Below, piece by piece: positions 24,216 to 58,162 of a stretch of DNA of 64,000 nucleotides. A program made the position numbers and the translations under genes. The stretch's first letter is position 1; every line of letters starts with the position of its first letter. The notes beneath the pieces were generated by a model. It saw only the letters and a program-made list of their open reading frames with translations. It searched no databases and was not told the origin of the DNA. Source of the stretch: Sthenelais limicola (taxonomy: Eukaryota; Annelida; Polychaeta; Phyllodocida; Sigalionidae); assembly GCA_942159475.1 (NCBI GenBank), contig OW804100.1, positions 3,680,627 to 3,744,626 of the forward strand, written 5' to 3'.

Positions 24216-24219
24216 CATG

Positions 24220-24525: not shown

Positions 24526-24533
24526 GCGGTGGA

Positions 24534-27500: not shown

Positions 27501-27715
27501 AGCCGGGGAGGCCGGGGTGTCTCTCCTTTGAAAAAGGAGTTGCAGGGAGTGAGATGGAGTCGGGTGGCTCTAGATATTATTGGTCCTTTTCGGAAAACAC
27601 CTAGAGGGAATGTATGTGTTATGGTGGTGACGGATTATTTCAGTAAATGGGCTGAGGCTTACCCCTTGCCCGACCATACTGCTGCAACGTGTGCGATGGT
27701 GTTATTCACTTACGC
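24534..27715 (+). CDS. pol: protease, reverse transcriptase, RNase H, integrase N-part (Gypsy), frameshifted
   Basis: The open frame has its first start-like codon (GTG) at 24534; the natural start is probably by frameshift from gag. Aspartic protease: FLIDWGAQCTLI near residue 130, where family members have D-T/S-G; the Trp is unusual. RT: CADYRPLN, ITLDLESGYWQI, MSFGLCNAPATFERMM and VYLDDIIIF (about residue 551). RNase H: LDTDASGFGMAGIL (about 703), TKRELLAVL and RTDHASLQWL. Integrase: HHCC zinc domain (HTLHGNKLAAHFG ... CEICASC) and the first catalytic Asp in ALDIIGPF (about 1012). The frame is lost between 27690 and 27715, within the integrase core; the residues after that to 27773 are shadow sequence. 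Confidence 0.92.
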
Positions 27716-28783
27716 TATGGCCCGCCAGTCTCTCTGCAGACGGACGGGGCTCCGGAGTTCCGGTCAAGTTTGATGAAGAATTTGCTTGGAATGTTAGACA
27801 TTGAAAAGCTAATGACCTTGCCCTATAGACCCGAATCTAATGGACAGGTAGAACGTTTTAATAGGGTTTTGGTCGAGCAATTGTCTTGTCTGACGGAGTA
27901 TGAGGATGTAAATTGGGATTTATTAGTTCCTTGCATTGCTCATGCTTATCGGGGTGCTGTCCATAAGAGTACACATTGTACACCAAACATGGTGGTATTT
28001 GGTTCTGAGGTGACGGTACCAGCTGACATTATTTATGGAACTCTAAGTGGTGATGTGGATTTTCCTTGCCCAACTGTATTTGTGGAGGAGATTCGTTCTT
28101 TATTGAGGAAGGGACATCAATTTGTGAGAGAGCAATTGGGCCATTCGGCTGTATTTCAAAAGAGGTATTTTGATAGGAGAGCTCGGCCTAAGGAATTCAA
28201 GGAAGGGGACCTAGTGTGGAGATATGCCACTCCCATGGCTCAGAAGAAGTATGGGCCTAAATGGGATGGACCCTTTCTGGTGGTTCGGAGGGTGCAGGGT
28301 TCTACCTATGAATTGCAAACTGCGGATGGCCTCTTGAGGTGGAATGGCAATTTGTTGAAGCTGGCTTTTGATGCTGATGGACAACCGGTTCAAGCTACTA
28401 ATCTTCATCGGGCCCCTGAATACCAGAAGCAGGGGGCTAAGGGCCGGGACATTCTTCGGGTCTCTCCTGTTGGCAAGGTATTGCCCGGGTCGGAGGCACC
28501 GGTTCCTAAACCAGCTAAGAAAATTGTGCATCATGTTAGGAAAAGAGGCAGACCGCCGCGTGCTCCTCCTAAAACTACTGTCTTGCCACAGTCAGAGGTT
28601 TCGGGGGACTCGGGTGCGAATTCTGTCGAGTCGGGTGAAGAGGATGAAGCAGTTGCAGTATTGGAGGAAGATGAGTTACCCTTGGCTGAAACAATGGATA
28701 ATTTGTTGCAGTCCGAGTATCTGTCCGAGAGGCCCCGCCGAACTGTTAGACCTCCGGATAGATATGGGATGGGGATTAGTTAA
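27705..28783 (+). CDS. pol: integrase C-part (Gypsy), separated by a frameshift
   Basis: Continues the integrase core in another frame: TDGAPEFRSS supplies the second Asp and ESNGQVERFNR the Glu of the DDE triad. A GPY/F-type module follows (KKYGPKWDGPFLVVRRV), then a basic and an acidic tail with RKRGRPPRAPPK, an AT-hook-like motif. No chromodomain seen. A one-base indel around 27700-27715 would account for the break from the upstream frame. The tail ends in RPRRTVRPPDRYGMGIS. Confidence 0.88.
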
Positions 28784-29456
28784 TGTGTTTGGATGTAATG
28801 GTGCGAAGTAGAAAACAAATTACACAACGAGAAGTACTGCAGTAGAGTCGGGCCGGGCGCGGAAGCTTGTGTGTAGAGCTCCGGTTCGACCTTGGAAGAT
28901 ATCACTATATTGGTTGGCTGTGTTAATTTTTGCTCCGATCGGTTTAACTGGCCAGTTGACCTCCTCGGGTTGCCGGACCCATTGGGAAATAAAGTGGGGA
29001 GTACCAGTCTATAACCTTTTTGGCTTAAATCATTGATATAGTCGTGTTTTTGTTGTATGTATGTCTGGCTCGGGGGCATTATCAGTTGTTGTGTCTACAG
29101 GTAGGGGTTGGGGCATTGCTCATTTGGGGGTATGACCAATTGAGGCCGGGTCATGAGTCGTCTGCGGCTGGTTACTTGACTGGTGTTGCTATTTTTAGAC
29201 CCGGTGACCTCGTTCTCGCGTGAAGGAACGAGAGGTGGCTGGTGTGAACCAGTCAGTCAGTTGCATTCGGTCGACTTGGTCGGTCGTGTCCCACTGTATG
29301 CTATTGCCCCACGTGGAATAAAATAGTCGAATTGTCGAATATTCCTTTGCATTTCATTGAAGTTTCAGTTGTCGTAACTGTGCAGAAAGTGTGACCCGGT
29401 TTTGAAAGTGTTCGTGTTGGATAGGATCAGGTTGTGATCCTGTCAGTGGCCGTGTT
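28784..29456 (+). other. spacer between pol and the third ORF (Gypsy)
   Basis: 673 bp without a gene. It includes an AATAAA at 29319-29324 and a short palindromic CGAGGTCACCGGGT/CTCGTTCC region. A splice acceptor or internal promoter for the downstream ORF could lie here, but none is evident. Confidence 0.45.
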
Positions 29457-32267
29457 ATGGCCGACGAGGAGAAGCCGGGCGGCTCACAGGGTTATGCTGC
29501 TGATTTCCCTGAGATGGCGAAAGTTCCTGCCCCGAACCCTGAACTTGCTGTGAAGAAAAAGTTGAGTGAACAGAGGAAGGCTGAGCGGAAAGCTCGGGAG
29601 CAGTCCCGGCTTGCTGCAATGAAGAAGGCAACTGTGGCTAAGCAGTCGCTGTTGAAGAAATCAGCTGTGGTGAAAGCTACTAAGGTTAAGAAACCCGGGA
29701 AGAAGTTAACTGAGAAGCCGGCTACTAAGGTGGTGGAAAGGACCAGTCCCCGGAGGGCTAATCCCGGAGTTGTAGCGGCTGATACTCAGCTTCCCGAAGC
29801 TCAGCTTGCTGCAGCGGGGCAGACGGAGAGAGCTCCTTCTCCCGCGGCCTCTGACGTGGTGGTTGTGGACAGTCCCGAGTCTACCCCGGCTCCCCGAGCC
29901 GAAGAGGGAGAGATAGTGGAGGATGATGCTACGGCTGCTGTTGGAGACCCGGGCACGGAAGGTGTCACCCCGGACACTGCTCAGCTTACCGCTGAAGGTG
30001 TTGAAAAAACACAGGAGGCGGAGGAAATGGATACCACTCCTGTTGTTGATGTTGTAACCGAAAAACCTGAGGATGATGCTGGTTTTGTGGAGGTGAAGTC
30101 TAAAAAGAAGAAGCCTAAACCTAGTTCTGCGAAAGTTGGTTCGGAGAAGGAGGTCCAAGCGATTGAACGGCAACACGGGATTTCTCGTTACAGGTCGGGG
30201 AAGTTTATCAAGAAACGTGAGGACCCTGACTTTGCTGTGAGAAATTTGACCCGGTGGAATGCTTTACAGAAAAAGCTTGACACTTTTGTAGTGCTGGAGG
30301 AGGAAATTGCCCCTGTGGTACCAAGTGTGGAGGATACCTTCCCTGTCTGTCCTGAGTCCGAGGATGAGGATGAGGCCATGGCCGAATACTCAAACGGGAC
30401 TTTGATGTCTAAGTACGAGATGGAATTTCATTTCTTGAAGAGTCGTACTGGTCGGCAGCCGGAATCAACCCGGGAGGTGGTGATTAACCCGACGGTGCTT
30501 GTGAAGCTGAATAGTGTGGAGCGTTTGTGGAGCCCGGGGCAGAGGTGTCCTTTTGTGTATTGCCGGCATTTGGACCCGGCCATCAATCCGGATGGGGTTC
30601 GTTCTTACAGAACGAGGGAAAGGTTTTACCGGCATCTGGTGGAGGAGCATTGTCCGGCTAGTTACCAGCTGACCTGCCCACATGCTTCGTCTTGTTTGGT
30701 GAGATTGGATCGCCGATCAGAATTAGTGAGGCACTGTATGACGCAGCACCATGAGAAGAGGGACACTGCACTTGATATGTGCATAAGTTTTCGGGTGTTT
30801 CAAAAGGAGTTCCCAAATTACGGGTGTCAAAAGTTTGCGAGAATGACCAGAGGAGATTGGGAGACCGTGTCTGTTCTCGGGAGGACTGGTGGTTCTAGGC
30901 GGTTTGTGATCCCCAAGCACCCGTCCTCTCATGGTTCAGGCCCGGCCCCTGCGAGTGTTTGGAAGAAGCCTCCAAGTAGCAGTTATGGGAGCGCTGATCA
31001 CATGAACTCCTCCATTGAGTCATCGGTGGTAGACCAGAGTTCTATGCTGTCTGGTGCAGAGCGTTCGGAGCGTTCGGAACGTGTTCGGCCAATGGGAAGT
31101 CGAATCCCGAATGTTGATGCCACCTATGACCATGTTTCTAAGTCTTTGGAAAGAATAACTGCATGTATGGACGCCGGAGTTTCAGCCATTCAGTCGACTG
31201 CTTCGGCTGTCATGGCGGATATTCGCAACCTAATTGGTGAAGCTTTTGATCCGTTGGAAGGGATCCAGGAGTTGCGGGAACAGGTGAAACTGATTCCGAA
31301 TCTAGAACAGGAGAATCTGGACTTGCAGGATCAGTTGAGGTTTTATAAAGAGGAGGATAACCGTTCGCGTGAAGTAAATATGGAGTTGCGTCGTAAGTTG
31401 TCCCGCTATGAACAGCAAGGTGGTCCGGATTCTAAGCGGAAGAAGACGGAGAAAGATAAGGTGGAAACTGAAGTGCAGGGTAAGCCGGAGGATCAAGTTA
31501 TGGAGGAGGAGGAAAAGTCGGAGAAAACCGGAGCTGTTGGTGGTACAGTTAGCATTTCAGATATGCGGGAAGTGATGTCGGGTCTCTTCAAGGAAATGTT
31601 TGAGGAACACTTGCCTCAGCCTGCTGCTCAACAATTGCCGCCTCCACCACCTGTTGCTATGACTATGCCGGCCTTTCCCTCCTGGGATGCCTTTTTCCAG
31701 TCTTTTGGACAGAATTTGCCTCAATATACTGCTGCGGATCCTAATATGAGTGCTTTCGCGGACCCGAATGCGCAGATGGCTATGCGCATGGCTCCGCCTT
31801 TGTTTAGTCCTCCTGCTGTGTCTAGAGTTCGGCAATCACCGCAAGTGCCTCTCTATAGTGCTGCGGTGGCTGGTGGAGTTGGTTTCGGGGAAAACCCACC
31901 ACCATCCGGTGGTTCGGTGCCACATGCTGCCAAGCCGGGGATGGTTCGGGGGGGAAAACCCGCTCTGTTGCCGAAACCCCGCACTATGGTGACGCTGACT
32001 CCTAGGCCTAGCGCTGCGAGGGTTACTTCCACTCCGGTTGCTAGCCCGGAGAGAACCGCTGTGCTAGTTCCCGATAAGGCTTTGGATAGTCCCGCAAGAC
32101 TGGCGTTGGAGATGAAGAGGCTGGAAGAAAACTTGACCCAGGATACGGGTGAGGGTGAAGTTGTGGACTCGGATGCAGCTGAGGAAAGTCCTGAGATGGA
32201 GATATCTGTTGAGGAGGAGAATCGGTTGCTTCGGGGTGAGAAGGGCACAGTGATGGATGAGTATTAG
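29457..32267 (+). CDS. 936-codon third ORF with two C2H2-like fingers (Gypsy element)
   Basis: Intact ORF from ATG at 29457, sense to pol. Residues 30-110 are Lys/Ala-rich and basic; 110-290 acidic and low complexity. Around 364-430 are two finger-like units: CPFVYC with a later H-x4-H, and CPHASSC-x12-H-x4-H, then a conserved-looking segment (FQKEFPNYGCQKF). Residues 560-690 are helical, probably coiled coil (LEQENLDLQDQLRFYKEEDN), followed by a Pro-rich region and an acidic C-terminus. There is no signal peptide or membrane segment, so it is not an envelope gene. It could bind nucleic acid and act as a second Gag-like or regulatory protein; the function is unknown to me. It is the only undamaged long ORF in this element. 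Confidence 0.8.
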   Translation: MADEEKPGGSQGYAADFPEMAKVPAPNPELAVKKKLSEQRKAERKAREQSRLAAMKKATVAKQSLLKKSAVVKATKVKKPGKKLTEKPATKVVERTSPRRANPGVVAADTQLPEAQLAAAGQTERAPSPAASDVVVVDSPESTPAPRAEEGEIVEDDATAAVGDPGTEGVTPDTAQLTAEGVEKTQEAEEMDTTPVVDVVTEKPEDDAGFVEVKSKKKKPKPSSAKVGSEKEVQAIERQHGISRYRSGKFIKKREDPDFAVRNLTRWNALQKKLDTFVVLEEEIAPVVPSVEDTFPVCPESEDEDEAMAEYSNGTLMSKYEMEFHFLKSRTGRQPESTREVVINPTVLVKLNSVERLWSPGQRCPFVYCRHLDPAINPDGVRSYRTRERFYRHLVEEHCPASYQLTCPHASSCLVRLDRRSELVRHCMTQHHEKRDTALDMCISFRVFQKEFPNYGCQKFARMTRGDWETVSVLGRTGGSRRFVIPKHPSSHGSGPAPASVWKKPPSSSYGSADHMNSSIESSVVDQSSMLSGAERSERSERVRPMGSRIPNVDATYDHVSKSLERITACMDAGVSAIQSTASAVMADIRNLIGEAFDPLEGIQELREQVKLIPNLEQENLDLQDQLRFYKEEDNRSREVNMELRRKLSRYEQQGGPDSKRKKTEKDKVETEVQGKPEDQVMEEEEKSEKTGAVGGTVSISDMREVMSGLFKEMFEEHLPQPAAQQLPPPPPVAMTMPAFPSWDAFFQSFGQNLPQYTAADPNMSAFADPNAQMAMRMAPPLFSPPAVSRVRQSPQVPLYSAAVAGGVGFGENPPPSGGSVPHAAKPGMVRGGKPALLPKPRTMVTLTPRPSAARVTSTPVASPERTAVLVPDKALDSPARLALEMKRLEENLTQDTGEGEVVDSDAAEESPEMEISVEEENRLLRGEKGTVMDEY

Positions 32268-32861
32268 TGCTCTTCCACTGTTTTTTGTAGTGTGATGATG
32301 ATTGTGTGTTTATTTGTTGTTTTCCGGATGGACGGCGGCGTGGGAGCGCCAGTATCATTGGCATCTGGCTACGCCGAAGTCAACCGGGCCGGATGCAGTC
32401 GTTCGCGGATATTTCCAGTCCTCTCCGAGACAACAACCCCCTGATTCCCTGCAACAGACACTACGTGGACATCTACTCTATTTACATGGACATTATTTTA
32501 TGCTAAAGCATATGGACCTCTGTGATTTTATTTTACCGGATTTATCCTACCAGTGATTGTGATCATACCTCGGGTTAGAGTTTTTCTTCATTATTATTCT
32601 CCCAAGTTAAAGGTATGTTTCATATTGTATTGTGTTGTTATAGGAATATATTGTTTTTACTTACACCACGCGTGTGTAGGCTTTTTAATATTCCTTCACT
32701 TTACTTTTTCACATGTCGTTCTTCTATGTCCTTATGTTCCATTTCCACTGTATGTGTCTTTACGATTTAATGTATTATACGTCTTACTTAGGACCTGTTT
32801 AGTTCTAGCCAGTTCGTGTCTAGTCGGTCCTCCCTCCAGAAAAAGGGGGGGAGGGGGGTAT
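32268..32861 (+). other. 3' untranslated region and polypurine tract (Gypsy)
   Basis: No gene. It ends with a purine run (AAAAAGGGGGGGAGGGGGG, 32840-32858) directly before the 3' LTR, the expected plus-strand primer. Confidence 0.8.
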
Positions 32862-33309
32862 TGTGGTGCTGAGTGTGGTGGTGCCGGGTCGGAGCGGTTA
32901 TCCCCGCTCTGGCCCGGCGCTGCTAGCCAGTGTCCCGAGCTCCCGGTCTAGTCGCCCGGTTATCCGGGTGCGGCCGGCCGGACTGGATTCGGGCTGGCTG
33001 TTCTATCTGTTGCAGGGATGTTTTGCCACCAGATGTCGTGTGGGGGTTTTGTCTCTCTTATTTTAATATTTTACTGTTAGCCTATGTCTGATGTCAATTC
33101 TTGTCTTAAACTACCCTTTCTTTACTATAACTTTTTTGTTCTAATCCCTCTCTTCTGTGAAGCGGAGGGAGAACCTTTTTCACTGTGGTTGAAGGGTTTT
33201 TAGTCGGCAATAAAGACTAAAGTGCTAGCAAGGACTCGGAGATCTGTGTTGTTCTATTCTTGTTGTTATTTACCCGAATCGCCGTGCAAGTAAATAAGCA
33301 GACATTACA
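32862..33309 (+). repeat. 3' LTR (Gypsy)
   Basis: 448 bp from TGTGGTG to CATTACA, preceded by the polypurine tract and followed by CATG, which also precedes the 5' LTR remnant. An AATAAA at 33209-33214 is the likely polyadenylation signal. The right border is placed by the TG...CA rule and the flanking CATG. Confidence 0.82.
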
Positions 33310-33540
33310 CATGAACACATATCATTACCGAATGTGTATTATGTACATTTCTATTTGGTGCCCATACAATGATCAACATGACACCGGCAGTTACTTTCTA
33401 ATCAATTACTCTTACAAACCTTATTGTAATATTTTCATAATGTCTCTTACTAGTTGCATAGCAGGGAGCTGTATTATGTACAATAATCAAATTTTGAACT
33501 CGTGTATTATTGTAATATTTCCATAAATGTCTCTTACTAC

Positions 33541-33841
33541 TTATAAGATGCATAGCAGGGTTAAGAGCGCAGTACCTACAAATATTTGAAACTCCACCAT
33601 GTATATGATAGAAATGGCTCGTATATTGTATATCACCGTTGTGCCCAACCAAGTCACGTCCTTGGCCTTGAAGAGGGTAGTCGTTTCGCGGTTGGAGAGT
33701 GTCTTAAGATAGAACAACTCTCCCTTCATCAGTTCAATGAAGAGAATGGAAATTCAATTACATTTTATTTATATATACAAATAATCCAAGCGTCGTATAT
33801 ATTCAGCGTTGGTGAAGTAATGTCCACACTGATGGCATTTT
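33541..33841 (-). pseudogene. rearranged fragment of the RPA-like sequence
   Basis: On the minus strand 33729-33625 reads MKGELFYLKTLSNRETTTLF followed by KAKDVTWLGTTVIY, homologous to the exon start at 20436-20560, and the preceding bases resemble the intron end there. Just before it (33841-33790) is a piece matching the later part of that exon (AISVDITSPTLNIYD region). The order of the pieces is swapped relative to 20.4 kb, so this is rearranged debris or the junction of two copies. It lies on the same strand and 3' of the Helitron-like element. Confidence 0.6.
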
Positions 33842-33991
33842 AGTAGAAGTTGCCGACTTCGACTCCAAGTGTCTAATCACTTGGTAAACGGTATCATTTA
33901 TATGAGGAAAATGGCATTTTAGCAGAAGTTGCCGACTTCGACTCCAAGTGTCTAATCACTTGGTAAACGGTATCATTTATATGAGAAAAAT
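33834..33991. repeat. 79-bp tandem repeat with hairpins
   Basis: Two copies (33834-33912, 33913-33991), nearly identical, with a fading third start. Each holds a 7-bp stem hairpin CCAAGTGTCTAATCACTTGG (33865-33884 and 33944-33963). Position just beyond the C-terminal end of the Helitron-like gene makes it a candidate subterminal structure of that element. Confidence 0.75.
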
Positions 33992-34064
33992 GGTATTACC
34001 TACCAGTTTTTAATAACATGGCATTTTTGAAGCGCCTACTTCAATTACTTCAGTTAATAATTAA

Positions 34065-35103
34065 TTACCTAAGGTCTCTCATGAGTCGACCACACTGCAT
34101 CCACTGCAAGTCTGGGACATTACGTTGTTGCTTGATTCGGTGGAAGACCTGTAAACCAGCCTCATAAATTGATTGAATGGAACGATTGGGACGGGGTATA
34201 GCAGCAATGGCAGCATGCCACAGATGTTCAAAGTGGCGGCGAGCATTACCATTATCCTGGCTACGTGCTTCACCCGGGAAGCCAATGACCAGAACATATA
34301 GGCACCACGGCCTCAGATGAATATGGCGTGTAAACTGCGCCCCGTTCCCACTGTTATGTTCACATAATCGTCGCCTGATATTACAAGTCTCACCAACGTA
34401 GGCTGTTTCACAATCCTTTGTACTTGCAAGCATGTAAACAAAACCAAGTTCATAATCTGGTAGTTCTTGTTGAAGCTGAACAAACGCAGTGTCAACCACA
34501 CGCTCCCTTTCATGTAAAGAGTCAAGTTGGAAAAGCGTGCGCTGCACATTCGCATTGTAAGAAGACTTGGTGCAAAGTAAAGCAGTCATGACTATGATGG
34601 TTTCATCAAAATCTCGTACAAATACAAGGTCTTGCAAGTTGCGAACTCTACTTATGAGTACAAGTAACATACTTCTATCCCAAACCTTATACATAGAGGC
34701 TTGATTGCCTAACTGGGTGGCAAGTTGTGTGCAGGTCTCTCCGATGATTTTATGAATCGTCGATGCAACAAAATATTGAAGTGGCCACTGCAACCTACGT
34801 CCTTTTGCAGCCCCTTGTCCAATGACTACTGGTGACGTGTATCTTGGTTGAAGATTAAAAGATATCCAACTGTCAAAAATTTCATCGCCTTCCCTAGGCC
34901 TTTGTCCTGGTGGTATGAGCGTTACACGTAGTCTATGTTCTGTGTTAACTATACCGTTGTTGGCAACCCGAGGGAGCTCCTGGATCACACAAAGTTGACC
35001 CTGTGAAAACCTAGGCGTATTACCTGTGGAAGGATTATTAAATGTAAGACGCATAAGAGCACCTGCGTGAAGAAATACCTCTACAGGTTCACTGCAACTT
35101 CGG
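34065..35103 (-). CDS. C-terminal part of the PIF1-type helicase fused to a GIY-YIG nuclease
   Basis: The frame is the same as that of the Rep-helicase segment on the other side of the MITE; 741 bp (element plus one duplication) separate them, a multiple of three. From the ATG at 35054: residues 1-40 resemble the loop preceding helicase motif V, then VASTIHKIIGETC (motif V) and LLVLISRVRNLQDLVFVRDF (motif VI). After a ~60-residue linker comes GFVYMLAS...AYVGETCNIRRRLCEHNSG (about residues 203-235), with the VYM/YVG strand pair, catalytic-type Arg, His/Asn and a downstream Glu in RRHFEHLWHAA (about 275). This is a GIY-YIG nuclease domain, which cuts DNA with a metal ion. Coding ends at 34065. 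Confidence 0.8.
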
Positions 35104-35108
35104 TTTAA

Positions 35109-35845
35109 AGAGATAAACCACAGTCATATGCACTGCTGCAGGCGGGAATTCAAGGAACTAATGCGTGAAAAATAAGGAGTGACAATAATTTTTTCAAACT
35201 TCGTCTTGAGAAAGAAGGTGGTTTGGGGATAACAAAAAGGAAAAAAAAATGTATCTCAGCATATTTTTTTTTCATTCTAGAGACCACCAAAGTTTAGTAT
35301 TGAAGTATGTGGAGAAAATGGATATTTTCTTAGTTTTTCCAAGATTTCAGACAGATAAATAACATTTTTCAGTTGAAATGTCTTCTAAACATAAACACTA
35401 TACAGGTTTACCCTCATGCATGAAAGAACAGGGTATCAACATATTTTGAACAATATTATTTAGCTTTTAAAATCTTCAATATTCCTGTTTTTAACTCATT
35501 GGGAATCAGATTCATTTGAATAACTTTTTTAAAAAGTTGGTGACCCCCATTTTTTATTGCTTGAAAGGGTAAAGCAATATGTTAGCTATGTCTACAGAGA
35601 TTTTTAGGGAAAAGTTATTTTCAAATTTTTTTTTATACTGAAAAAACGAAAAAAATTGTCCTTTTCTCATAGACTTCTATAGTGAACAACCCTAAATTTC
35701 AGGGCTCCCTGAAATGAAAACTAACCCGGTGACATATTGTTTTTATTGGCTTTTTGAATTCACATAACCTTGTTCTTTCACAAGGCAAAGTTTAAACAAA
35801 ATGTTATTTTCAGTTTTTTTCCCAGTTGAACTGTGGTTTATCTCT
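35109..35845. mobile_element. 737-bp MITE inserted in the helicase at TTAA
   Basis: Ends are inverted repeats: AGAGATAAACCACAGT at the left and its complement at the right. TTAA (within TTTAAA) is present on both sides at 35105-35108 and 35846-35849, consistent with a TTAA duplication as in piggyBac-type transposition. The inside is AT-rich and non-coding. The stop ending the Rep-helicase frame (35838) is inside the MITE terminus, so the insertion caused the truncation. Confidence 0.82.
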
Positions 35846-38800
35846 TTAAAGAACGAACTGCAGCCTGATTGGCAGGAATCCAGTTGCCTGCTACAGACTC
35901 GACTTCGTCCAAAGCCTTTGCAGTCAAAGAATGAATGGTAGGATCTCCAGTTTTTGCGCGAATATGGCTGCGTACAGCTGATTCAACAGCCTGACGTGTA
36001 GAAAGAACTCGGAGGGCATGTTGTGGTACTTGATCCCAACTCGCTACAAATTGTGCCCTGCACCGTCTTGTAAATATGGAAACATATTCTTCTACTTCTG
36101 CGTCAGTAACTGTATTTATCCTTAATATTTCAATCATGCGTCGTAGATCTTGATCCTGAGCACAACGTACATAGTGATTACACAATAATACTCGGAATGT
36201 AGTTAGTAAATGACAACTACTCCATATCGACATCCCTTGAACGGGCGGTAACTGTAGGGCATCTCCAGAAGCCATTACCAAAATTCCACCGAAAGGGACT
36301 GGCGACTGACATAAACGTTGTAAAACTAAGTCCATTATTGCGAACGTCTCTGCAGAGATCAGACCTACCTCTTCAATAATTAAAACCTGAATACGCCGTA
36401 GAAATTCTGTTTTCAGGTTGTCTTTGGCTAAACGTCCAAGACACATCTCAGCAATGATATTTACGGTATGCAATCCTATATCCACTACTGGTATAGAAAA
36501 AAGTGCGTGAACATGCAGGCCTCCTAGGGCCTGTGCCCGTTCAGCCGTAAGACACGTAAGCATGCACCTGAAACCTTTAGACAGAGCGTATGTCTGGGCC
36601 ATCAAAAGAAGGTACGTTTTCCCAGAACCAGGAGGCCCTATAAGAAGAGGAAATTTCACGAAAGAAACATTAGGTTGCTGTAATGCATCAATTGCATTCA
36701 ACAGTGCCTGAAGGGCCATCTGTTGTTCTCCATGCGATAAATCGCTCTGCCCAGGGGCTCTTTGAAGTTCAGGTTGGTAAAAAACCTCTTCTTGAGCACG
36801 AAATGCTATAAGATCAGGAAAGTTGAAAAATTGCTGCATATTCAACACATCAATAGCATTGTTTCTATACTGAAGTTCTAATTCCTTGAGTGTGTCTGAA
36901 GCTTTTTGGGATATTGCTACATCCGTAGCTAGTGGCATAGCTTGATACAGAATGGCATCGTCATTGAAAAAGGACTTGAAGGCTTGTGGCAAAAATTTCA
37001 AAATCTTATGAAACTGTCGGTTACCAATAGGCAACCACATCAGTTGATCAAGTAAAAAAGTCCGAACAAGCTCCAACTGTTGTGCCTCTGTAGGGTGTAA
37101 ACTTGGAATTAGGTTTGCTGAAACCATAGCCTGTTGTAAACTTGGGGCACTATACAAATCAACTTCAGTAAGGAAAGATCCTTTAGACAGAAGCAAATGT
37201 ATTATGAATCGAGGAAATTGGAAAGGTGTGATGTTGGGAAAAACAACAATATTCCTCTTGGTGGCTGTAGAATCTACCAACCTTAGGTATAATTCGGATT
37301 GAGTACCATTGTCAAAATCGGTCTGCAACACCAAAAATATACCTACATACAAATCATGTACGTGCTGCGGCACCTCTTGATCTGGACGGTCAATAAATGT
37401 TTCTAGAAAAGTTACTGCCTCAGTTATATATCTATGCCGAAGAAAAATTGCATGGCCAGTGCCATCAATCCAAGGCGAAAGAATGACGTCCTCGTTTACT
37501 TCAAGCTTTGTGCGGCTACTTTTCCGAATAAACCACTTGGTGTAAAGTTCAAGTTTGTCAACAAACATAAGCTCGGGTGGTCTCACAGAGAAAGTCCAGG
37601 TCGTATCCAAGTAATACACATTATCAAAATATTGCTCAATGATGATATTTTGATTTGGGGTGAAATGCCTCCATTCAGAGAATGTCAGACGGTCTGTTAT
37701 TGTAAAAGGTTGTTCGCCACCACCTGGCGGGAGAGGCTCTTGGCCCTGTCTTCTTTTAGTGATAGCAGCACGATATTCTGGCTGGGAAGTAGAAACGTGC
37801 GTATACTCTTCTTCTGTCATAACAAACGGTAGGCCTAACGAAAACCAAGACATTTCCGCTAAACCTATTTCTCGTGCCAAAGGCTCAGAAGAGGCGTTTT
37901 TGTGATACTTAGCTTGGCTGGAAATTTTCAAATTCTTTAAGTCATCGTATGATACATCCACAGTATCACTGTCTTTTGTGTTGTTAAATTTTGCATCACG
38001 ATGTTCTTCACCACCTGCAGCGTATTTGCATACGTAAGATACTTGAAAACGTGTGTCTACACACTGCACGTTTGTGCAAGACTGCATCGCTGCAAGAAAT
38101 AACGGTATTGTTGGTAGAAATGTCGGTCCAGGTTGCGTAGGATAGGTCCAACGTCCACCAATGAACCGGGAGTCAAGTTTCACTTGTTCATTGGTATCGG
38201 TTTCCCCTAATCCCATGTCTTTGAATAAAGTTAAAATCTCATCGTCATACATATTTTCTGTGCCTGAAAAAGCGTAATCGAAAGACGGGGGGGTGTTTCT
38301 GCACCCATCTCTATTCCTTTTCATGCATCTTTCGTTGGCACGATTACAGTCATGGACATGGAGGGATGCACACAGATCTTTCAAATCGTAATAATTGTGG
38401 CGGTCACCTACAATGCCCATCTCTTTTAAAGAGTCATAGTCCGTTGATACTTCAGGTTGAAACATACCTTCAAGACTGCATTTTATTCTATCCAACTTTG
38501 TTTTGTCGTCGTCATCTGAAACTTTTAGGAAGCCGTGTACATGAGGTTTATTACCTAACGCACCGGCAGACTGAAATTCGTATCTTGACCAGATCGCCGT
38601 AACATGCCCACACGGTTGTTGAGGGCTATGTTGGATCCAATGAAGAAAATATCTAATAGTACGCTCCCAGGTTCGGCAAAGAATACTACAGTAAGAAGAA
38701 AGTGCTTGATTAAGCGCTGGACCTTCTGTACCATGAACAGATTCTATTTCAAGTCGTATTGGCCAAACACCGAACGTACGTCTCTCATTACAAGTCAGAG

Positions 38801-39285
38801 TAAAGAAGTAATCAAATCCTTCAATATCTCTCATCAATCCCGCCAGTCTCTGCACCTGGCGCCGGGAATCGATTTCATCAAAAAAGAGCATGCTCTCTTT
38901 TCCAGAAAAAGCAGAACCATCATGCGACTGACGCAAATGTTCTAAACCTTTCTTTACCACGACTGAAGCAGAATTATGATTGAGGTGTATATTCACAAGG
39001 AGGTCAAAAGACCAGTGCATATATTCATCAATATGAGAAGTCAAAAGAGAATCATCGTAAAGTCTTACCATTATATGGTCCTTAAGGGTAGCTAGCGACC
39101 CCTTTGATCGTCGTTCCTTGGAATAGCTGTAAGAAGTGATGGGAAGTGCTCCAAGAACAGTATTGCCTTCCTCTATCCAAAAAATTGTTGGAAACAAAAT
39201 TGCCTCTGGATAAAGTAAAGGCACAGCTGTGTCAGGAGTGGTAGCACATATGTGTTGCAGAATAGCTGACATTGAACACTTGGCT
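35838..39285 (-). CDS. Rep (HUH) endonuclease-PIF1 helicase (Helitron-like), truncated by the MITE
   Basis: An ATG at 39272 opens 1144 codons, but the protein originally continued from the upstream ORF. Near residue 145 MLFFDEIDSRRQVQRL and FDYFFTLTCNERR mark the Rep N-lobe; NKPHVHGFLKV (about 240) is the HUH metal site; YVCKYAAGGEEH (about 411) holds the nucleophilic Tyr and Lys. Helicase motifs: GPPGSGKTYLL (Walker A, about 876), VLIIEEVGLIS (Walker B variant, about 966) and MASGDALQLPPVQG (about 1002). The frame ends in the MITE after NQAAVRSL. The missing half of the helicase is at 35103-34065. A Rep N-terminal frame change lies near 39285. Confidence 0.88.
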
Positions 39286-39289
39286 GTTT

Positions 39290-40429
39290 ACAGAAAGCCG
39301 CTTTCACCATGGTACGTAGGTGGTCATTTAGGAAAAAATGACCAGCGAGAGAATCGTTCTTTTCTAGTAGATAAAGGGGTGACATATCACGATTAGATTC
39401 ATTTGGAATATCAGGTGTATCAGAATCATCACCCGTTACCATAGGTCCAATTACCACATTGGGAGGTTCCTCAGCATCATCACCTTCAAAATCTAGTTCG
39501 TCAAAATTAACATTATCTAGAACTATGGGTTCAATGTAGTCCTCAGGTAGTTGTGGTAATTCCGGCTCTAACTCGGGAAGAATAGGAACATCCATCCTAG
39601 ATTCCACATAAACAACATCTTCCTCCGCTTGTAGTAATTTCTTATGTCGCATGCAAAGACCAACATAACATTGGCTCAATGGAAATCCGTTTGGGCAGCG
39701 CCAACGAATGGCAGTGTTGCAGTTATTGTGACAACATTTATGCGGTGAATTCACACATTCCCGAATTAGAAAACAGTCTTTATGAGTATTGCACCGCAGA
39801 CTCAGTTGGCCGCCACACCAGGAAATAGCCTCATCCCGTCTCTGAGACAACAGGGCATTACTTCTAACTATGAGAAGCAGTCTATGTGTAGTTTGTTGAT
39901 CAGCATTATACCATTCCCAGCTACTATCCCATCGTACAGATAATCTAACTGAGTATGTTGCAATGAGTGGGGATCTCACAGTCAACCCAACCATAGTGTT
40001 CCACGTGTTATTGGCTAGAGATTGAAAATCTAGAAAAGGTGGTAGACGTCGGCCCCGAAAAATCACTACAAGAACATCATGCTCCATGCCCTCAAGGACA
40101 CCCAAGATATCTTCGGCATCCAATTCCTGAACACCAATTTCCAGGTTTAAAGAAGACAAAAAGTCACCCACTAATACTTCGGTGCTGCGACGTGCGCCTT
40201 CACCATCATGGTTAATGGCAGTGTGAATATTATTCTCTAATTCAAGTAGTCGGTTGAAATTTGCGTGCTTAGAACTTGTCAATTCCATTATAAATTTCAG
40301 GAGCTCTTCCAAATAATGTGGGCTGTTGGGCCGCCACAGCGCATCTAAGAACTTACGATGGAGGGCTCTAGAATGAAGTAAAATTTGAGCTAAACAGTGA
40401 ATCGTCGCCCCAGCTGAAAAGTCGTCCAC
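39290..40429 (-). CDS. Helitron-like protein, middle section (frameshifted from both neighbours)
   Basis: The open frame 40429-39173 begins at a GTG because the natural sequence continues from the previous ORF: its first residues VDDFSAGATIHCLAQILLHS are preceded in frame by LREPPP. It contains a Cys/His segment (about residues 205-265: CGGQLSLRCNTHKDC, CHNNC, CPNGF, MRHKKL), then an acidic region and SLAGHFFLNDHLRTMVKAAF, the stretch which in Helitrons leads into the Rep domain. Coding is expected to shift frame near 39290 into the Rep-helicase frame; the remainder to 39173 is shadow. Role of the Cys/His segment: probably zinc-dependent nucleic-acid binding, inferred. Confidence 0.65.
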
Positions 40430-41763
40430 TGGCGGTGGCTCTCTAAGGGAACGTTAAAAGGTGGCAATCCCTTATGGTCCGCTGGATGTACCATCGTAAC
40501 AAAGTCTTTCATTTTATTACGATTACTTCTATTTTCATTCTCTCCTCCTACCCCATTCATCTCTGCATTACGGTAATTGAAAATATTGCGCATTTCTACC
40601 GCGTCGGCCATAAGGATGCACGTGGAAGATCGTCCATAATTCAATAGATTTTCTACAGGATAAAGAGTCTTTGACGCTTCCCAGAATACAGTGGTGCGGC
40701 GAGCATATTCTGGCCCTAAAAAGTACGAATTTACAACCCAATGCCTGATGTCTGATCGATTTTCTAAGGTTAAACCCGCACTATCAGCTTCACGTTGTGA
40801 CCAAATGTGAGTTGAGTTTCTAACAGCCAACCGAAAAGTTGACAGTCCTGCTGACGAACCTACCTGTCGCACAACATTTGAAGAGGAGTTGTAAAAAGTC
40901 GTCCTACCAGCGCGTACATAGTTTGGACTTATGCTCACGGGAGCGTATTGTTCGTTATACCGAGGGGGAGTATTTTCCAACACAGGGTGTTGTGGGACGT
41001 GTATGTACTTAGAAGAAATTGGACCATGCTTCGACGAATCGCACGCAATAACACACAGACCCAATTCTGGGTGAACGACTAAAGTCGGTGACACGGTCCA
41101 TTTGAGCGATCGTTTAGGAAAAATCCAGTCACCACGCATACCTGTAAAAAGAAGTTCATCTGCTCCAAATGCAGTGAATGACATAAATTGTTTGGCAAAG
41201 AAATGGTGGATTTGAAGGTACTGCGCTCTACCCCACAAAACATCATCTACGAAAATGGAACATCCTGAAGGACATTTTACCTGAGGGAAACAGTGTAAAT
41301 TGACCAGTGACATAATATCTGCTATACGCCCTTCTGCCATTACAGTCTTAAACCGGTTTATTGTAGATGTTGCATCAACAAACAAGGGTGGGGAATTCCA
41401 CAAACGACGTATGGCAAGGCCAATGTCATCTTCCGCCTCCACCCACATATCCCTTAAACTGGGTGTTAGTAAATTCATAAAGATTTCCTTGTTACACTGT
41501 CTTTCACATGAAAGAAATGACCACAATACAGAAGGCCATGCATAACGCCAAGTGTCTTTACGACTTACATCTGTTTCACTGCTAAGATACACTGCACATA
41601 AATTGCATACAAGCGATCTACCATCATTGATATATTCTGAATCACCATAATACCTGTGGACTGGTGCTTCTGGAAGAGGGCCAAGTTCCAATGGGTTTTC
41701 GACTGTACCATTTCGATGGCAAACGCAGCAGGTCAAGGCATCTATATTGTCATCACTGTCCAT
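40390..41763 (-). CDS. Helitron-like protein, N-terminal section
   Basis: 457 codons from ATG at 41763. The start MDSDDNIDALTCCVCHRNGT has a Cys pair, followed by SLVCNLCAVYL (second pair) at about residue 54, giving a likely zinc finger. The rest is a globular region of unknown function (for example CPSGCSIFVDDVLWGRAQYL). The frame leads into the middle section by a frameshift near 40440, as QWTTFQLG is in the wrong frame relative to VDDFSAGA. A homologous piece of this N-terminus survives at 45014-45220, so the N-terminal section is part of the repeated unit. Confidence 0.65.
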   Translation of the reverse strand: MDSDDNIDALTCCVCHRNGTVENPLELGPLPEAPVHRYYGDSEYINDGRSLVCNLCAVYLSSETDVSRKDTWRYAWPSVLWSFLSCERQCNKEIFMNLLTPSLRDMWVEAEDDIGLAIRRLWNSPPLFVDATSTINRFKTVMAEGRIADIMSLVNLHCFPQVKCPSGCSIFVDDVLWGRAQYLQIHHFFAKQFMSFTAFGADELLFTGMRGDWIFPKRSLKWTVSPTLVVHPELGLCVIACDSSKHGPISSKYIHVPQHPVLENTPPRYNEQYAPVSISPNYVRAGRTTFYNSSSNVVRQVGSSAGLSTFRLAVRNSTHIWSQREADSAGLTLENRSDIRHWVVNSYFLGPEYARRTTVFWEASKTLYPVENLLNYGRSSTCILMADAVEMRNIFNYRNAEMNGVGGENENRSNRNKMKDFVTMVHPADHKGLPPFNVPLESHRQWTTFQLGRRFTV

Positions 41764-42898
41764 CTCTGCAGGTGTTCAGGTCATTTCTTACGATATAGTA
41801 TCGGAACATCAACCATATAAAATATTACGACTGTCGCCCAAGGTACGCGGTTGCGGGATGTCTTCATGTGTTCTACTCTCATAACGTCATTGCTTCTGCC
41901 GGTGTTCATGTTGAATTATCATCGTATTTCATATTCTAAAAAATATAGTACAGGTGCATTAGATATGATACTACACAACAAATTAATCAATTATTATTAT
42001 TATTATTATGGAACTTTTATTCAGGAAACATATACATCGTGCAATATACGTCAGGAAAAGGACAGAGCTCATTCTCCAATGGAGATCTTCCGAGATGCCC
42101 CTTTGAAAATGATAATGATAATACAATTATAATTTGGTACATTTGGTAATGTGCAAAGGAATGATGTGTTACAAAATAGTGTAATTCTTTAGTGTTATCG
42201 GAAGTACATATCAGTTGCATACCCTTGGTTTTGGGTGTTTATAGTGATTACTCTTAACGGACTAACATTTCAACATTTGGACTTCAATTGTTGCTTCTGT
42301 ATATTGGTTACATATTTGTCAAAATATACTACTTTGATTTACAATTTTTACAACCATTTTATATTTCGAAATGTGTACAACAGTTGTTTTGTACAGCGTG
42401 TATGTTTCTTTCCATTGATACATTTTTAACTTTCCTATCGGAATAAAGATCTATGTTTACTGCATTGTCTGAGTCTTCCGCTGTAACAACTTATAAATCT
42501 ATGTCTCACTACCGGGGACTATCCTACCTATACTAGTAGAATAGATATACATAGTCTTCTCACCCTGGACTGGCTGAGATAATGAGAAAGATCAAACATA
42601 CTTAATCGAGGGTATACCCAAGATTCATACATAATGACTTAACTAAATAATTCATACTTAATATCTAACAGTACCCTCAATGTTTGAAGAAACATTACCC
42701 TCCCTGCCCACCATTATATTGGTCTTAGTCAACCGGTCTTACATGCCCGTTTTTGTCCCCCCTCCCCCCTTTATTAACCTCCCGGTTTCCAACAATTAAG
42801 GAGCGCTATGCTCTATATATGACTCATTATAGTCTTGTTTCATACCTTGTAAAGAATTTTAGAATGGAGTAGGCTTTATTTCCTTCCCCTTAAGAATT
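41764..42898. other. non-coding: 5' flank of the Helitron-like gene and 3' region of the LINE
   Basis: No gene seen. A TTA microsatellite lies at 41990-42006. On the minus strand the LINE has an AATAAA about 25-30 bp after its stop (around 42870). A C-rich stretch occurs at about 42750-42785. Confidence 0.5.
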
Positions 42899-44776
42899 TC
42901 ATATCTCACTTAGGTAGACATCATATTCCTGTGGGTATGTGGTTTTTAAGTAGACCTTAAATGCCACTCTAGATTCAATACTTCGTGGTTTGGCTGGAAG
43001 TTCGTTCCATAACATTGCCATTCTATATATATACAATTTTTTAAAACGTTCATTTTTGGGGCGAGGTACTTTTAATTGTTTTCCCTTACTTAGTCCCCTC
43101 AGTGATACATTTCTATTATCTAAATTGTCACTAATGAGTGCTCTTCTGAATGCCATTTCCAGAGTATGGCTTTGCCTCCTAGTGTTGAGAGTGGGCAGCT
43201 CGACTGTCCTGTGTATGTCTCTTGTACTAGAAAACTTAGGTAATTTAAGGACAATTTTAAGGGCCGAATTTTGTAATGACTGAAGTCTTTCGGTATATCT
43301 TTGCGGGGCGGTTTGGTAAAAAACGTCCCCGTAGTCAAGATGCGGGAGGATCGTTACCTTGTAAATCAGAAGTAGGGTTTCTTTGTCGCAGATGCCATAT
43401 AGTTTTGACATGGACTTTATTTTTGCCCTTACTAGTTTTATCTTTCTATCCAAGAATGTTTTAAAATTTAGTTGCTTATCAATATCCACCCCCAGGAATT
43501 TGTATGAGTCCACCGATTCTAGGTTCGACTTATCAATATAATAACAGTGGTTAATGTTTTTATCATTCTTAAGACTAATATTCAGGTGCTTACATTTTTT
43601 CGTGTTGAGGGAAATTTTGTTAATCTCACACCATCTGACAATGTGGTTTAAATCTTCTTGCAAATGACAATTGTTTTGAGTTTTTTGATCTCTAGTTAAA
43701 TATAATACGGTGTCGTCCGCAAAATGCTGGATCCGACTCGTTTCAACCACCCTATGTAGATCATTGATATAAGCTATGAATAGTAATGGGCCTAGAGAGG
43801 TCCCCTGTGGTACCCCACAGGTGACCTCCCCAGACATGGAAAGTTCACCATTTATGACTACCTTCTGTGTCCTTCCTTTTAAATAGTTTTTAAACCAATC
43901 TAGTGATTGATTCTTAATTCCGAAATTTTGAAGTTTGTCTAAAAGTAATTTGTGATTTACGGTGTCGAAAGCTTTTTTGAAGTCTAAAAATATTAAATCT
44001 GTGCTCTTTTTATTGTTAATGTTATCATATGTATATGTGAAAAGATTATCCAAGGCATCATTTATTGACTTTCCCTGTCTAAAGCCATACTGTACATCAC
44101 ACAGCATTTTATTTGATTCCAGATATGACGACAACTGTCTCTGGACGCAGCTTTCTAGTATCTTGGCTGGTAAAATGATACATGATATGGGTCTATAGTT
44201 CCCCACATTCGTTTTGTCCCCTTCTTTAAAAATAGGTGTCACTATTGCGTTTTTAAAATCATTCGGTATAGTTGAAGTTTGAATAGACAGATTGTATAAA
44301 TAGGCGAACTGCTTGCTTAATGCATACATGCAGGGTTTAAGAATTTTCGTAGGCATTAGTTCAATGCCCGAAGCCTTATAATTACCTACTTTCTGGAGGG
44401 AAATTTCCACAGAGATGTCAGTTATTGGTTGAAATTGAAAGTCTTCATTACCCCCTTCCATTCTAGCCCCCCTATTATCTTTTTCTGGGTCGTTAACGGA
44501 TATTTTATTGGCTAGGTCTGGTCCAATATTTATGAAGAAATTATTGAATTCATCAGCTGCCTCTTTGCCCGTCAGTCTAAGACCCTCTTCATTTTTTATA
44601 ACTACTTCCCTGTCCTTACTTTTACATTTATCTTTTGATATTAGTGGCTTTATCATGTCCCAAAACTTGTGTGGGTTCGACTTATTAAGATTAATTTGTC
44701 CTACTAGATAGTTATTTTTAGATCGCTTAATTTCTTCGTTTTCTTCGCAATGACAATGCATCATAGAAACGAACAT
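42899..44776 (-). CDS. non-LTR (LINE) retrotransposon ORF2: reverse transcriptase, 5'-truncated
   Basis: 625 codons from an ATG, covering the RT and C-terminal region but not the AP-type endonuclease that should precede it. RT motifs: GNYRPISCIILPAKILES, FLDFKKAFDTVNHKLLL, CGVPQGTSLGPLLFIAYIND, IQHFADDTVLYL (F-A-D-D catalytic, about residue 355) and SYKFLGVDID. The C-terminus RMAMLWNELPAKPRSIESRV is of the kind found in Jockey/CR1-like elements. 5' truncation is typical of target-primed reverse transcription. No frameshift seen in the remaining ORF. Superfamily assignment (Jockey/CR1 group) is tentative. Confidence 0.88.
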   Translation of the reverse strand: MFVSMMHCHCEENEEIKRSKNNYLVGQINLNKSNPHKFWDMIKPLISKDKCKSKDREVVIKNEEGLRLTGKEAADEFNNFFINIGPDLANKISVNDPEKDNRGARMEGGNEDFQFQPITDISVEISLQKVGNYKASGIELMPTKILKPCMYALSKQFAYLYNLSIQTSTIPNDFKNAIVTPIFKEGDKTNVGNYRPISCIILPAKILESCVQRQLSSYLESNKMLCDVQYGFRQGKSINDALDNLFTYTYDNINNKKSTDLIFLDFKKAFDTVNHKLLLDKLQNFGIKNQSLDWFKNYLKGRTQKVVINGELSMSGEVTCGVPQGTSLGPLLFIAYINDLHRVVETSRIQHFADDTVLYLTRDQKTQNNCHLQEDLNHIVRWCEINKISLNTKKCKHLNISLKNDKNINHCYYIDKSNLESVDSYKFLGVDIDKQLNFKTFLDRKIKLVRAKIKSMSKLYGICDKETLLLIYKVTILPHLDYGDVFYQTAPQRYTERLQSLQNSALKIVLKLPKFSSTRDIHRTVELPTLNTRRQSHTLEMAFRRALISDNLDNRNVSLRGLSKGKQLKVPRPKNERFKKLYIYRMAMLWNELPAKPRSIESRVAFKVYLKTTYPQEYDVYLSEI

Positions 44777-45013
44777 TTTACATGAGACTAATAAGTATAA
44801 AATAATCTGCGACTGTTAGTGACCATATCGTTTATAGTTGATCAATGAATTAATTAACTACACAAGTTTTTATTGTAATTGTTTGAGATTATGTTCATAT
44901 TGAAAATTAATGATTTTTTACTGCTGGCTTGCATCAATCCAACTGTCTTTACGAGATTAATGTGGTCAAGGTTAACAAATATGGCAGATAAATTGAACAG
45001 TAGTGATCATATA
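44777..45013. other. non-coding spacer
   Basis: AT-rich; nothing recognised. Confidence 0.5.
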
Positions 45014-45220
45014 TCATTTACGGATGCATGAATTCAATTTCATAACTATATAAATCTGATCAGTGATAAAAAATATGACATATAGATTGAACAACAGTGA
45101 TCTACTATCATTTACGTACTGGGGGTCAGAAAAATAGCTCCCGACCACCTCTGGATGGAGGTTTTTAACTCTTCCATCGGGAACAGCCATTTGGATGCCG
45201 CGCATAACGTCCATGTCCAT
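45014..45220 (-). pseudogene. relic of a second Helitron-like N-terminus
   Basis: The minus-strand frame has SYFSDPQYVNDSRSLLFNLY, which aligns to RYYGDSEYINDGRSLVCNLC of the N-terminal Helitron-like ORF at about residues 37-57. Spacing from the initiating ATG (MDMDVMRG versus MDSDDNID) is also similar. The Cys residues are lost. The rest has not been found; the frame ends at 45014. Confidence 0.65.
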
Positions 45221-45238
45221 GCTGAGAAATAAATTATG

Positions 45239-45370
45239 CAGGAATTGGCTATAATACCACGCCGTATATCAAAGAACATTAATGAATATTCATTAAGTAT
45301 GGTGAACTACCATTCTATATTATTGCAGGAATTGGCTATAATACCACGCCGTATATCAAAGAACATAATA
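45239..45370. repeat. pair of ~45-bp direct repeats, 88 bp apart
   Basis: The block GCAGGAATTGGCTATAATAC, continuing to CAAAGAACAT, occurs at 45239 and 45327 with no difference noted. Confidence 0.85.
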
Positions 45371-46429
45371 ATAATAAGCGTTAAATCATATTTAACCAAA
45401 GTGACCAAACAAACGCCTGATGAGACGTAATAAGGTCTAATCGACATCAGACCATAACTGTTCCATTGTAACAACATAATATGTATAAATATACAGTAAT
45501 CAGTAAACTCACTTAAGATATTTTGATCAGCTTTATAAAGGCTAGAGTAAAACTAATGACTTTTAGATTACATGAACAATGTACTAACCTTGAGAATTTA
45601 CAAGACCCGTCAAATCGGGAGGAACATGAAAATCGGGGGCAATGACCTGCAAACATACACAGCCATTAAACTTTAGGGGTCAGAAATATATATAATGTAT
45701 TACAAAAATGTTCACCAGTTCAGACAACAAGCGTTTCAAGGAATGAGCCAGAAACCCTTCAGCTCATAATTGATAAATTTACCAATGACAACGCACACGG
45801 GATACATATGGCATGATGATTATTCATGGACTAATAAATACTGCTTCTATATAGATTTAAGAAAACAATTTAAACAATTTAAGAAAAATACCATCATATT
45901 TTACATTCCATTAATGACACAATATATTAATAATTACATAATAGATCATGACTGATTATTATCTACAAAGGTTATTTTGAAAGCAACACAACTCCCAGTA
46001 GCTAACATGTACTAGGTAGGTGCGCGAAAATATAAAATAATTTTATACGTTTTCATAAATAATAATAACGTGTCATTATAAAAAGGGTAAACTCAAGGAA
46101 AAGTTTCTTTCAAATCACTGACCACAGACAAGTACAAGACATTGCTATTTTAACCGCGGAACAATGAGATAATCGACGAATTGCCCAGTTTTCATTGACC
46201 AAATGAAGCCAATTTAGATGTTTGACTACTCAGTACGGATGAAATGTGTTTCACCATGGCTATTTATAAGATTTTGCAACTGATATAACAACAAAATTGT
46301 TGACTGAATTACTGGACAATCAGATTCATGTGAGCTTTCCAATTACTGACGAACAGCGAAAATTAATTTCTCTTTTAAAGTCCTTCAAAACCAAAACAAA
46401 ATTCTGAGTTTAATGACCGCACGCGACAA
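45371..46429. other. non-coding stretch
   Basis: AT-rich; no gene or repeat recognised. Confidence 0.5.
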
Positions 46430-48104: not shown

Positions 48105-48427
48105 TTGACTAGTAAATGAATATAGGTGACTGAATGTGTGATCGATAATAATTTCCGTTGAAATTAAAACAATATATAAACACAGACTATGCCTACAGTG
48201 AACTTTTCGTGTTGACTTATGTGACCTTAAATCATTCGACGAAACAACAGAAATGCGATCGGAACTGAGATGACTAGTAAATGAATATAGGTGACTGAAT
48301 GTGTGATAGATAATAATTTCTGTTGAAATTAAAACAATATATAAACGCAGACTACAGTGAAATTTCCGTGTTGACTTATGTGAACTTCAATCATTCGATG
48401 AAGCAACAAAAATGTGATCGGAGCTTT
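48105..48427. repeat. ~165-bp tandem duplication
   Basis: The unit begins GACTAGTAAATGAATATAGG at 48105 and again at 48272, with the second copy lacking several bases and carrying point differences. Confidence 0.85.
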
Positions 48428-58145: not shown

Positions 58146-58162
58146 TTCTTCGTTCAATAAAG

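Follow-up and report, generated by a model that had tools for sequence, protein, structure and literature searches.

The stretch of Sthenelais limicola DNA analysed here (hereafter the window, 64,000 nucleotides of contig OW804100.1) carries on its minus strand a broken gene, gene A, for a Helitron-like protein with an HUH-type Rep domain with two tyrosines (Y2), a PIF1 helicase and, at the C-terminal end, a GIY-YIG nuclease domain, and on its plus strand, convergent to gene A, matches to a second gene, gene B, both situated within a long element holding later insertions (Table 1). The motifs that an earlier note on this DNA had named were all found on the minus strand; PHVHG (38532-38546) and YVCKY (38022-38036) in the Rep domain, GPPGSGKT (36615-36638), EEVG (within 36363-36383), GDALQLPPV (36240-36266), VASTIHK (34749-34769) and LISRVR (34641-34658) in the helicase, and GFVYML (34428-34445), YVGE (34389-34400), RRRLCEHN (34353-34376) and FEHLWH (34215-34232) in the nuclease. 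Of the Pfam profiles that the same note had proposed to search with, GIY-YIG (E 5.3e-8, 33.5 bits, cut-off 22.6) and PIF1 (E 6.2e-12) matched clearly, but the match of the window copy to Helitron_like_N was under the cut-off (E 2e-5, 25.3 bits, cut-off 28.9). Pfam scans of the window gene, the genomic copy L009 and the public proteins P0036 and P0045 gave no reverse transcriptase (RVT) match in gene A.

The helicase and the nuclease had been described as lying in one frame with a linker of about 60 residues. This holds for helicase motifs V and VI and the GIY-YIG domain, which share an open reading frame (ORF) of 329 amino acids (aa; 34065-35054) and are ~65 residues apart, but not for motifs I-III, which lie together with the Rep domain in another ORF (35838-39272) and are split from motifs V-VI by an insert resembling a miniature inverted-repeat transposable element (MITE) with perfect arms of 21 nt (35104-35124 and 35830-35850), missing from the copies L009 and L010. 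Relative to an intact sister copy, the window gene loses its frame near 40.4 and 39.3 kb, and gene A reaches N-terminally to 41763 through the ORFs 39173-40429 and 40390-41763, mostly beyond the region first described (34065-39285).

The genome holding the window (1.13 Gb; C3, C4 and C7 below are sequences of it) was searched as a whole, and all its GIY-YIG counts rest on the 150 of 739 candidates that were scored. An open frame of at least 2,300 aa surrounds 24 of these 150 matches. Twenty places were fetched, selected mostly by a long frame and with several near-identical, non-independent pairs among them, and 18 of them revealed a single uninterrupted ORF of 2,325-2,389 aa, the shorter ones being L010 (1,978 aa) and L023 (2,141 aa). 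Intact copies with Rep, helicase and nuclease in one continuous frame, for which a search had been suggested, do therefore exist; L009, which shares 99.1% identity with the window copy across 6.2 kb, encodes Rep, PIF1 helicase and C-terminal GIY-YIG domain in a single ORF of 2,325 aa. L010 ends early in the alignment of the 20 copies, and the other 19 all continue past helicase motif VI and retain HxH and YxxxY, the inspected helicase residues and, in the nuclease domain, Y, Y, G, R, H, N and E. Six pairwise comparisons of long copies gave 99.1–99.8% identity over the ~9.75–10 kb fetched, which suggests recent spread, although these stretches stop short of the ends so that duplication of a longer stretch is possible too. 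The ratio of nonsynonymous to synonymous substitution rates (dN/dS) of the GIY-YIG part, computable for four of six pairs of copies compared for it, is roughly 0.039–0.086, similar to that of Rep and helicase, and judging from the sequences the catalytic residues of the domain are held under constraint.

Searches of public protein collections returned 3, 17 and 199 proteins, 120 of the 199 being listed, and 136 proteins were named. The alignment contains 129 of these, omitting P0014-P0020, which are more distant helicase proteins including the canonical Helitron protein P0015. HxH is found in all 92 rows covering it, and each of the 116 rows that cover the two tyrosines has both. Seven of the 129 rows end less than 140 residues beyond motif VI, and 99 extend at least that far, which was taken as reaching the nuclease domain; six GIY-YIG residues (Y, Y, G, R, H, E) were checked in these and all six are present in 84. 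The fusion in one protein, as the earlier note had it, is borne out by 60 public proteins, each one predicted protein, which combine a full GIY-YIG site with HxH and YxxxY. As proteins with both Pfam domains were detected down to 25–27% identity to the window ORF, the fusion is probably old. Among the long open relatives, P0046, P0050, P0079, P0086, P0088, P0095-P0098 and P0100 retain a stretch at the position of the nuclease in which several catalytic residues are gone, and their Rep and helicase residues are intact.

By sequence and predicted fold, the GIY-YIG domain of gene A belongs to the SLX1 branch. Scored against the gene A nuclease family, two SLX1 segments reached 48–51 bits, and three Penelope-type GIY-YIG domains from the same genome 10–15 bits for the best domain and 13–18 bits for the whole stretch, so that a Penelope-like origin of the nuclease, considered as a candidate, is disfavoured by score for the three domains compared. 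The Glu of FEHLWH aligns with E79 of C. glabrata Slx1 (numbering hand-counted from the alignment), which is the essential Glu of that enzyme (PMC6902002). With SLX1, the partner of SLX4, and with plant HIGLE the domain has in common the GIY-YIG core, the RPW..GFP..FE..W stretch and the catalytic Glu, but it differs from both in its fusion to RepHel and in its lack of a C-terminal RING, the tails being 41–60 aa long with one Cys in nine of nine copies inspected. Penelope-like elements are likewise transposable elements of eukaryotes with a GIY-YIG domain, but they are retroelements with a reverse transcriptase and their GIY-YIG domains score far lower against the gene A family. GIY-YIG matches were also seen every 5.8–6.0 kb at C3:1.93-1.94M, C3:16.76-16.78M and C4:129.38-129.40M, mostly in 797-aa frames, fitting head-to-tail Penelope-like arrays, and the domain L052, taken from these, is one of those compared.

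The order found in gene A, an HUH/Y2 Rep with a PIF1-type helicase C-terminal to it in the same protein, is that by which Helitron-like (RepHel) proteins are recognised. An hhalign comparison of 20 Rep domains of the GIY-YIG class with canonical Helitron Rep (L050, L051, P0015) gave a probability of 97.1 (E 5.9e-11), the HUH motif and the tyrosine motif falling opposite those of L050. The 150 matches scored in a genome search with Helitron_like_N were sorted into 92 canonical-like (at least 47 bits), 50 divergent (~32–43 bits, above the cut-off and in the second half of the profile) and 8 fragments. A GIY-YIG match 3.1–4.6 kb downstream on the same strand follows 46 of the 50 divergent Rep matches, none of the 92 canonical-like ones and one of the 8 fragments, and a single canonical-like match has any GIY-YIG match within 10 kb; this segregation indicates that the nuclease is a property of a distinct group coexisting with canonical Helitrons in one genome. 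Helentrons carry an apurinic/apyrimidinic (AP) endonuclease (PMC6431247), and the comparison made with them in the earlier note stands as to layout, RepHel plus an extra nuclease domain, but not as to the kind of nuclease, which is here of another fold (GIY-YIG, SLX1 branch). Neither AP endonuclease (PF03372) nor OTU was among the Pfam matches at E <= 1 in L009, P0036 and P0045. In a tree of the PIF1 core, 35 family rows lie on one side of a branch (Shimodaira–Hasegawa-like approximate likelihood ratio 100) and six others on the other, but with its long branches and without the canonical P0015 the tree gives no placement of the class within Helitrons. When the Rep-helicase model was used in a fold search, most hits were PIF1 structures, with Helraiser (7lcc) at rank 24 and a root-mean-square deviation of 21.3 Å, which leaves the Rep fold without structural confirmation.

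Gene B consists of two exon-like stretches between gene A and the 3' end of the element, on the opposite strand, kept both in the window family and in the family of L017, and is probably spliced; its first exon is 55–57% identical between the two families. A genome search with this exon gave 112 matches, and among the best 81 a convergent GIY-YIG match lies within 15 kb in 56 cases (median 4.7 kb), a same-strand one in none and a divergent one in one. Gene B is present at all 24 GIY-YIG places with frames of at least 2,300 aa, and none of the 81 matches to it lies within 15 kb of the canonical-like Rep matches (79 of the 92 entered). Its product has no Pfam match above the cut-off (TFIIA at 1.1e-4, below the cut-off, sits on a glutamine run), no NCBIfam match and no PDB match. 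Some Helitrons carry RPA (PMC6431247), for which reason a single-strand-binding (RPA-like) protein was considered for gene B and found unsupported. The inverted fragment of its start just past gene A adjoins a 79-bp tandem repeat and is present at three other family places too.

For comparison of the borders a copy at C3:77.6M was used, with 30 kb covered by L039, L029, L009 and L030. The similarity between the two copies spans the window from 14,070 to 49,703, broken by four window stretches lacking in the C3 copy, which is ~19.2 kb long. The 5' end was detected at 498 candidate places in the genome, and 39 of the 40 that were scored start within 3 bases of it. Seven short relatives (L043-L049), 747–748 bp from GAAATG to CTGG, end like the large element. 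These non-autonomous relatives of 0.75 kb have the first 300–350 bp and the last bases in common with it.

In nine copies (the seven short ones, the window and C3) the 5' end is GAAATG (or GACGAAATG), the TC start of canonical Helitrons being absent, and CTNGAC stands directly upstream of GAAATG in all nine. Two sequences from before an insertion could be recognised, the 59-bp satellite of the window, where GAGCTAGAC is followed by ACAGCAG in seven units, and the interior of a short relative hit by the C3 copy, with CTGGAC followed by TC; both carry CTNGAC, which indicates that the hexamer is part of the target. The junction is C/A in the satellite and C/T in the other case, not between A and T, with the cut position uncertain by a few bases due to letters common to both sides. 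Neither target site duplication nor terminal inverted repeats were found in the nine copies and two pre-insertion sequences, all of one family. At the 3' end CTGG is present in ten of ten copies, followed by two variable bases (AC in six, AA in two, AT and TT in one each), and in the window, C3 and C4 copies a weakly folding GCGC-N7-GCGC, absent from the seven short copies, lies 9 nt before it, where canonical Helitrons have a hairpin ~11 nt before their 3' end. Terminal inverted repeats of ~300 bp in the C3 copy were rejected, the second arm being a separate short relative, inverted and adjacent, and the 79-bp tandem repeat with its hairpin was ruled out as a Helitron 3' end because the C3 element runs ~7 kb past gene A.

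Canonical Helitrons (Helitron1, e.g. Helraiser) resemble the element in the fusion of HUH/Y2 Rep and PIF1-like helicase, the lack of terminal inverted repeats and target duplication and the short relatives with common ends, but differ in that the element adds an SLX1-type nuclease and a second convergent gene, measures ~19 kb, does not start with TC and inserts behind CTNGAC, not between A and T. The 3' CTGG of the element is similar to their CTRR but is followed by the two variable bases. For Helitron2 a hairpin at each end is described along with asymmetric inverted repeats (PMC3627910); the end folds of the element are weak. The IS200/IS605 and IS91 families also use HUH enzymes and leave no target duplication, but are bacterial. 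We know of no GIY-YIG domain in either of them. The target motif of IS608 remains on one side of the element. IS608 is site-specific, and IS605/IS200 lack a helicase (PMC5876387).

Table 1. Features of the window, with coordinates as positions in the 64,000 nucleotides
Feature	Position	Strand	Basis
Gene A, RepHel-GIY-YIG transposase gene, broken	34065..41763	-	ORFs 40390-41763, 39173-40429, 35838-39272, 34065-35054
Rep motifs HUH (PHVH) and two-tyrosine (YVCKY)	38022..38546	-	motif positions; hhalign to canonical Helitron Rep
PIF1 helicase motifs I-III	36237..36728	-	Pfam PF05970 6.2e-12
PIF1 helicase motifs V and VI	34641..34769	-	motif positions; alignment
SLX1-type GIY-YIG nuclease domain	34215..34445	-	Pfam GIY-YIG 5.3e-8; motif positions
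MITE-like insert in gene A	35104..35850	.	inverted arms of 21 nt, perfect; TTAA at either end
Gene B exon 1 match, convergent to gene A	20460..20939	+	93% identical to C3 copy, residues 8-167
Gene B second exon-like stretch, approximate	21210..21540	+	C3 alignment; not a single open frame in the window
Inverted fragment of gene B start, just past gene A	33628..33729	-	C7:3714254-3714355
Whole element with later insertions	14064..49703	-	both ends same in C3:77.6M and C4 copies
Element 5' end GAAATG (or GACGAAATG if GAC is counted in)	~49700-49703	-	5' end matches genome-wide
Element 3' end CTCTCTGG + two bases	~14064-14070	-	C3/C4 comparison
59-bp satellite units flanking the element	49704..49950 (5' side), 13892-14063 (3' side)	.	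both ends abut satellite
LINE-like (long interspersed nuclear element) stretch (RVT_1 1.6e-38), not in C3 copy	41991..44748	-	comparison with C3
Ty3/Gypsy-like element, not in C3 copy	24191..33326	+	comparison with C3
4.4-kb stretch, not in C3 copy, open for 91 codons at most	15543..19956	.	comparison with C3
79-bp tandem repeat	33832..33989	.	two units in window, more in C3 copy

A 936-aa ORF with zinc-finger-like Cys/His spacing (29457-32267, plus strand) is situated within the Gypsy-like insert. Outside the element, a reverse transcriptase ORF beside a tyrosine-recombinase ORF (RVT_1, Phage_integrase) in a DIRS-like layout was found on the plus strand at 1718-5626 and 53899-57853, and tandem repeats (minus strand HPQFYYSPTVLL and similar) at 52779-53795 and 58154-58921, the former within a stretch of GC skew 0.54.

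We consider it likely that a large Helitron-like (RepHel) rolling-circle transposon of two genes, with an SLX1-type nuclease that has a putative role on branched DNA, is present in the window as a damaged copy. In intact copies the gene A protein, of ~2,350 aa, comprises an N-terminal cysteine-pair region, the HUH/Y2 Rep, the PIF1 helicase and the C-terminal SLX1-branch nuclease without RING; gene B would make an accessory protein. Work on Helraiser describes a Rep that nicks, a helicase that unwinds 5' to 3', a 3' end cut near a hairpin, circles and insertion without duplication (PMC4778049, PMC5876387). By analogy, Rep would nick the 5' end of the element, the helicase would peel off one strand, the 3' end would be cut near CTGG and the circle formed would join the target after CTNGAC; the junctions fit an HUH enzyme that transfers a single strand to a fixed motif. 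The cuts that SLX1 makes in branched DNA lie close to the branch point (PMC6902002), and from its position behind the helicase, to which it is tethered, the SLX1-type domain may nick branched DNA at the donor or the target (a fork, flap or strand-transfer joint), which would make the element independent of the host SLX1-SLX4 for the branch step. Animal and fungal SLX1 requires SLX4, and as plant HIGLE is reported to have an in-built control, with no such complex characterised (PMC9071465), nuclease activity without SLX4 is plausible.

Several observations weigh against this transposon with a working nuclease. The Helitron_like_N score of the window copy is under the Pfam cut-off, which sister copies exceed, and for 4 of the 50 divergent Rep matches a downstream GIY-YIG match is missing among those scored. 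The predicted models are of low mean confidence (predicted local distance difference test), 59 for the 329-aa ORF, with 71–89 in the domain region, and 53.5 for Rep-helicase. In the GIY-YIG comparisons dS is near or above 1, which makes dN/dS rough. No convergent GIY-YIG match lies within 15 kb of 25 of the 81 gene B matches, perhaps because just 150 of the 739 GIY-YIG candidates were scored, and the ends were mapped in one family, the seven short copies all being of one subfamily. Finally, 15 of the 99 public rows reaching the domain lack at least one of the six (P0007, P0009, P0046, P0050, P0078, P0079, P0086, P0088, P0095-P0098, P0100, P0103, P0104), so that some lineages either do without the activity or have decayed. 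Such rows, some with frames of more than 2,600 aa (P0095, P0096), would suit a domain serving mainly to bind branched DNA, its catalysis dispensable, which nevertheless seems quite improbable with the six residues intact in the other 84 relatives and in 19 of 19 own-genome copies and with the low dN/dS.

That the domain is a nickase for the target or donor strand, opening the target or cutting the complementary donor strand instead of trimming branched intermediates, would match what has been proposed for Penelope-like elements, where a GIY-YIG endonuclease stands beside the reverse transcriptase (PMC6431247, PMC5718144), and would go with an insertion directed by a motif. We think this unlikely, since by score the domain goes with SLX1, apart from the Penelope-type domains that this genome contains, and CTNGAC is placed where an HUH enzyme could read the target, so that Rep can explain the motif. 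Two conserved genes in a ~19-kb unit are large for a Helitron and might rather point to a host gene with captured Helitron parts, or to a virus, but near-identical copies at many places, a 5' end at hundreds of candidate places in the genome and two recognisable sequences invaded without duplication make such an origin very improbable. Scans of viral contigs, which gave 4, 54 and 34 peptide-pattern stretches and no confirmed relative, count against a virus too; a scan of bacterial and archaeal genomes gave 25 such stretches and likewise no confirmed relative. A chance adjacency of a Helitron relic and a GIY-YIG fragment of another element, which the broken window copy with its several nested insertions might have invited, is refuted by the single unbroken ORF in 18 of the 20 fetched copies (L009 included, the 20 being selected mostly by a long frame) and by the public proteins, and we give it virtually no credence.

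The earlier note knew of no Helitron class with GIY-YIG, and no description of one was found in the literature searched, mostly without subscription papers, preprints and Repbase, an earlier one being possible. The GIY-YIG passages in PMC3627910, PMC6431247, PMC12910113 and PMC5718144 concern Penelope-type elements, Terminons, homing endonucleases and a Mariner, and no Helitron. It is quite possible, and we would put it no more strongly, that the element stands for an old, widespread and so far undescribed third class of Helitron-like transposons with an HUH Rep/PIF1/SLX1-type transposase, a convergent accessory gene, insertion after the fixed hexamer CTNGAC and its own branch resolution. Such a class may escape programs set to look for TC...CTRR ends and A/T targets. 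Gene A offers an SLX1-type domain without RING, its chemistry as predicted, and the target motif together with near-identical intact copies provides a natural system for seeking activity. How Helitrons complete transposition, i.e. the target joint and the processing of the donor gap, is to our knowledge open, and a branch-cutting nuclease fused behind the helicase would point to this final step, testable by one change of the active-site Glu. If a third class is indeed at hand, one polypeptide would itself resolve the branches, for which other Helitrons presumably depend on their host.

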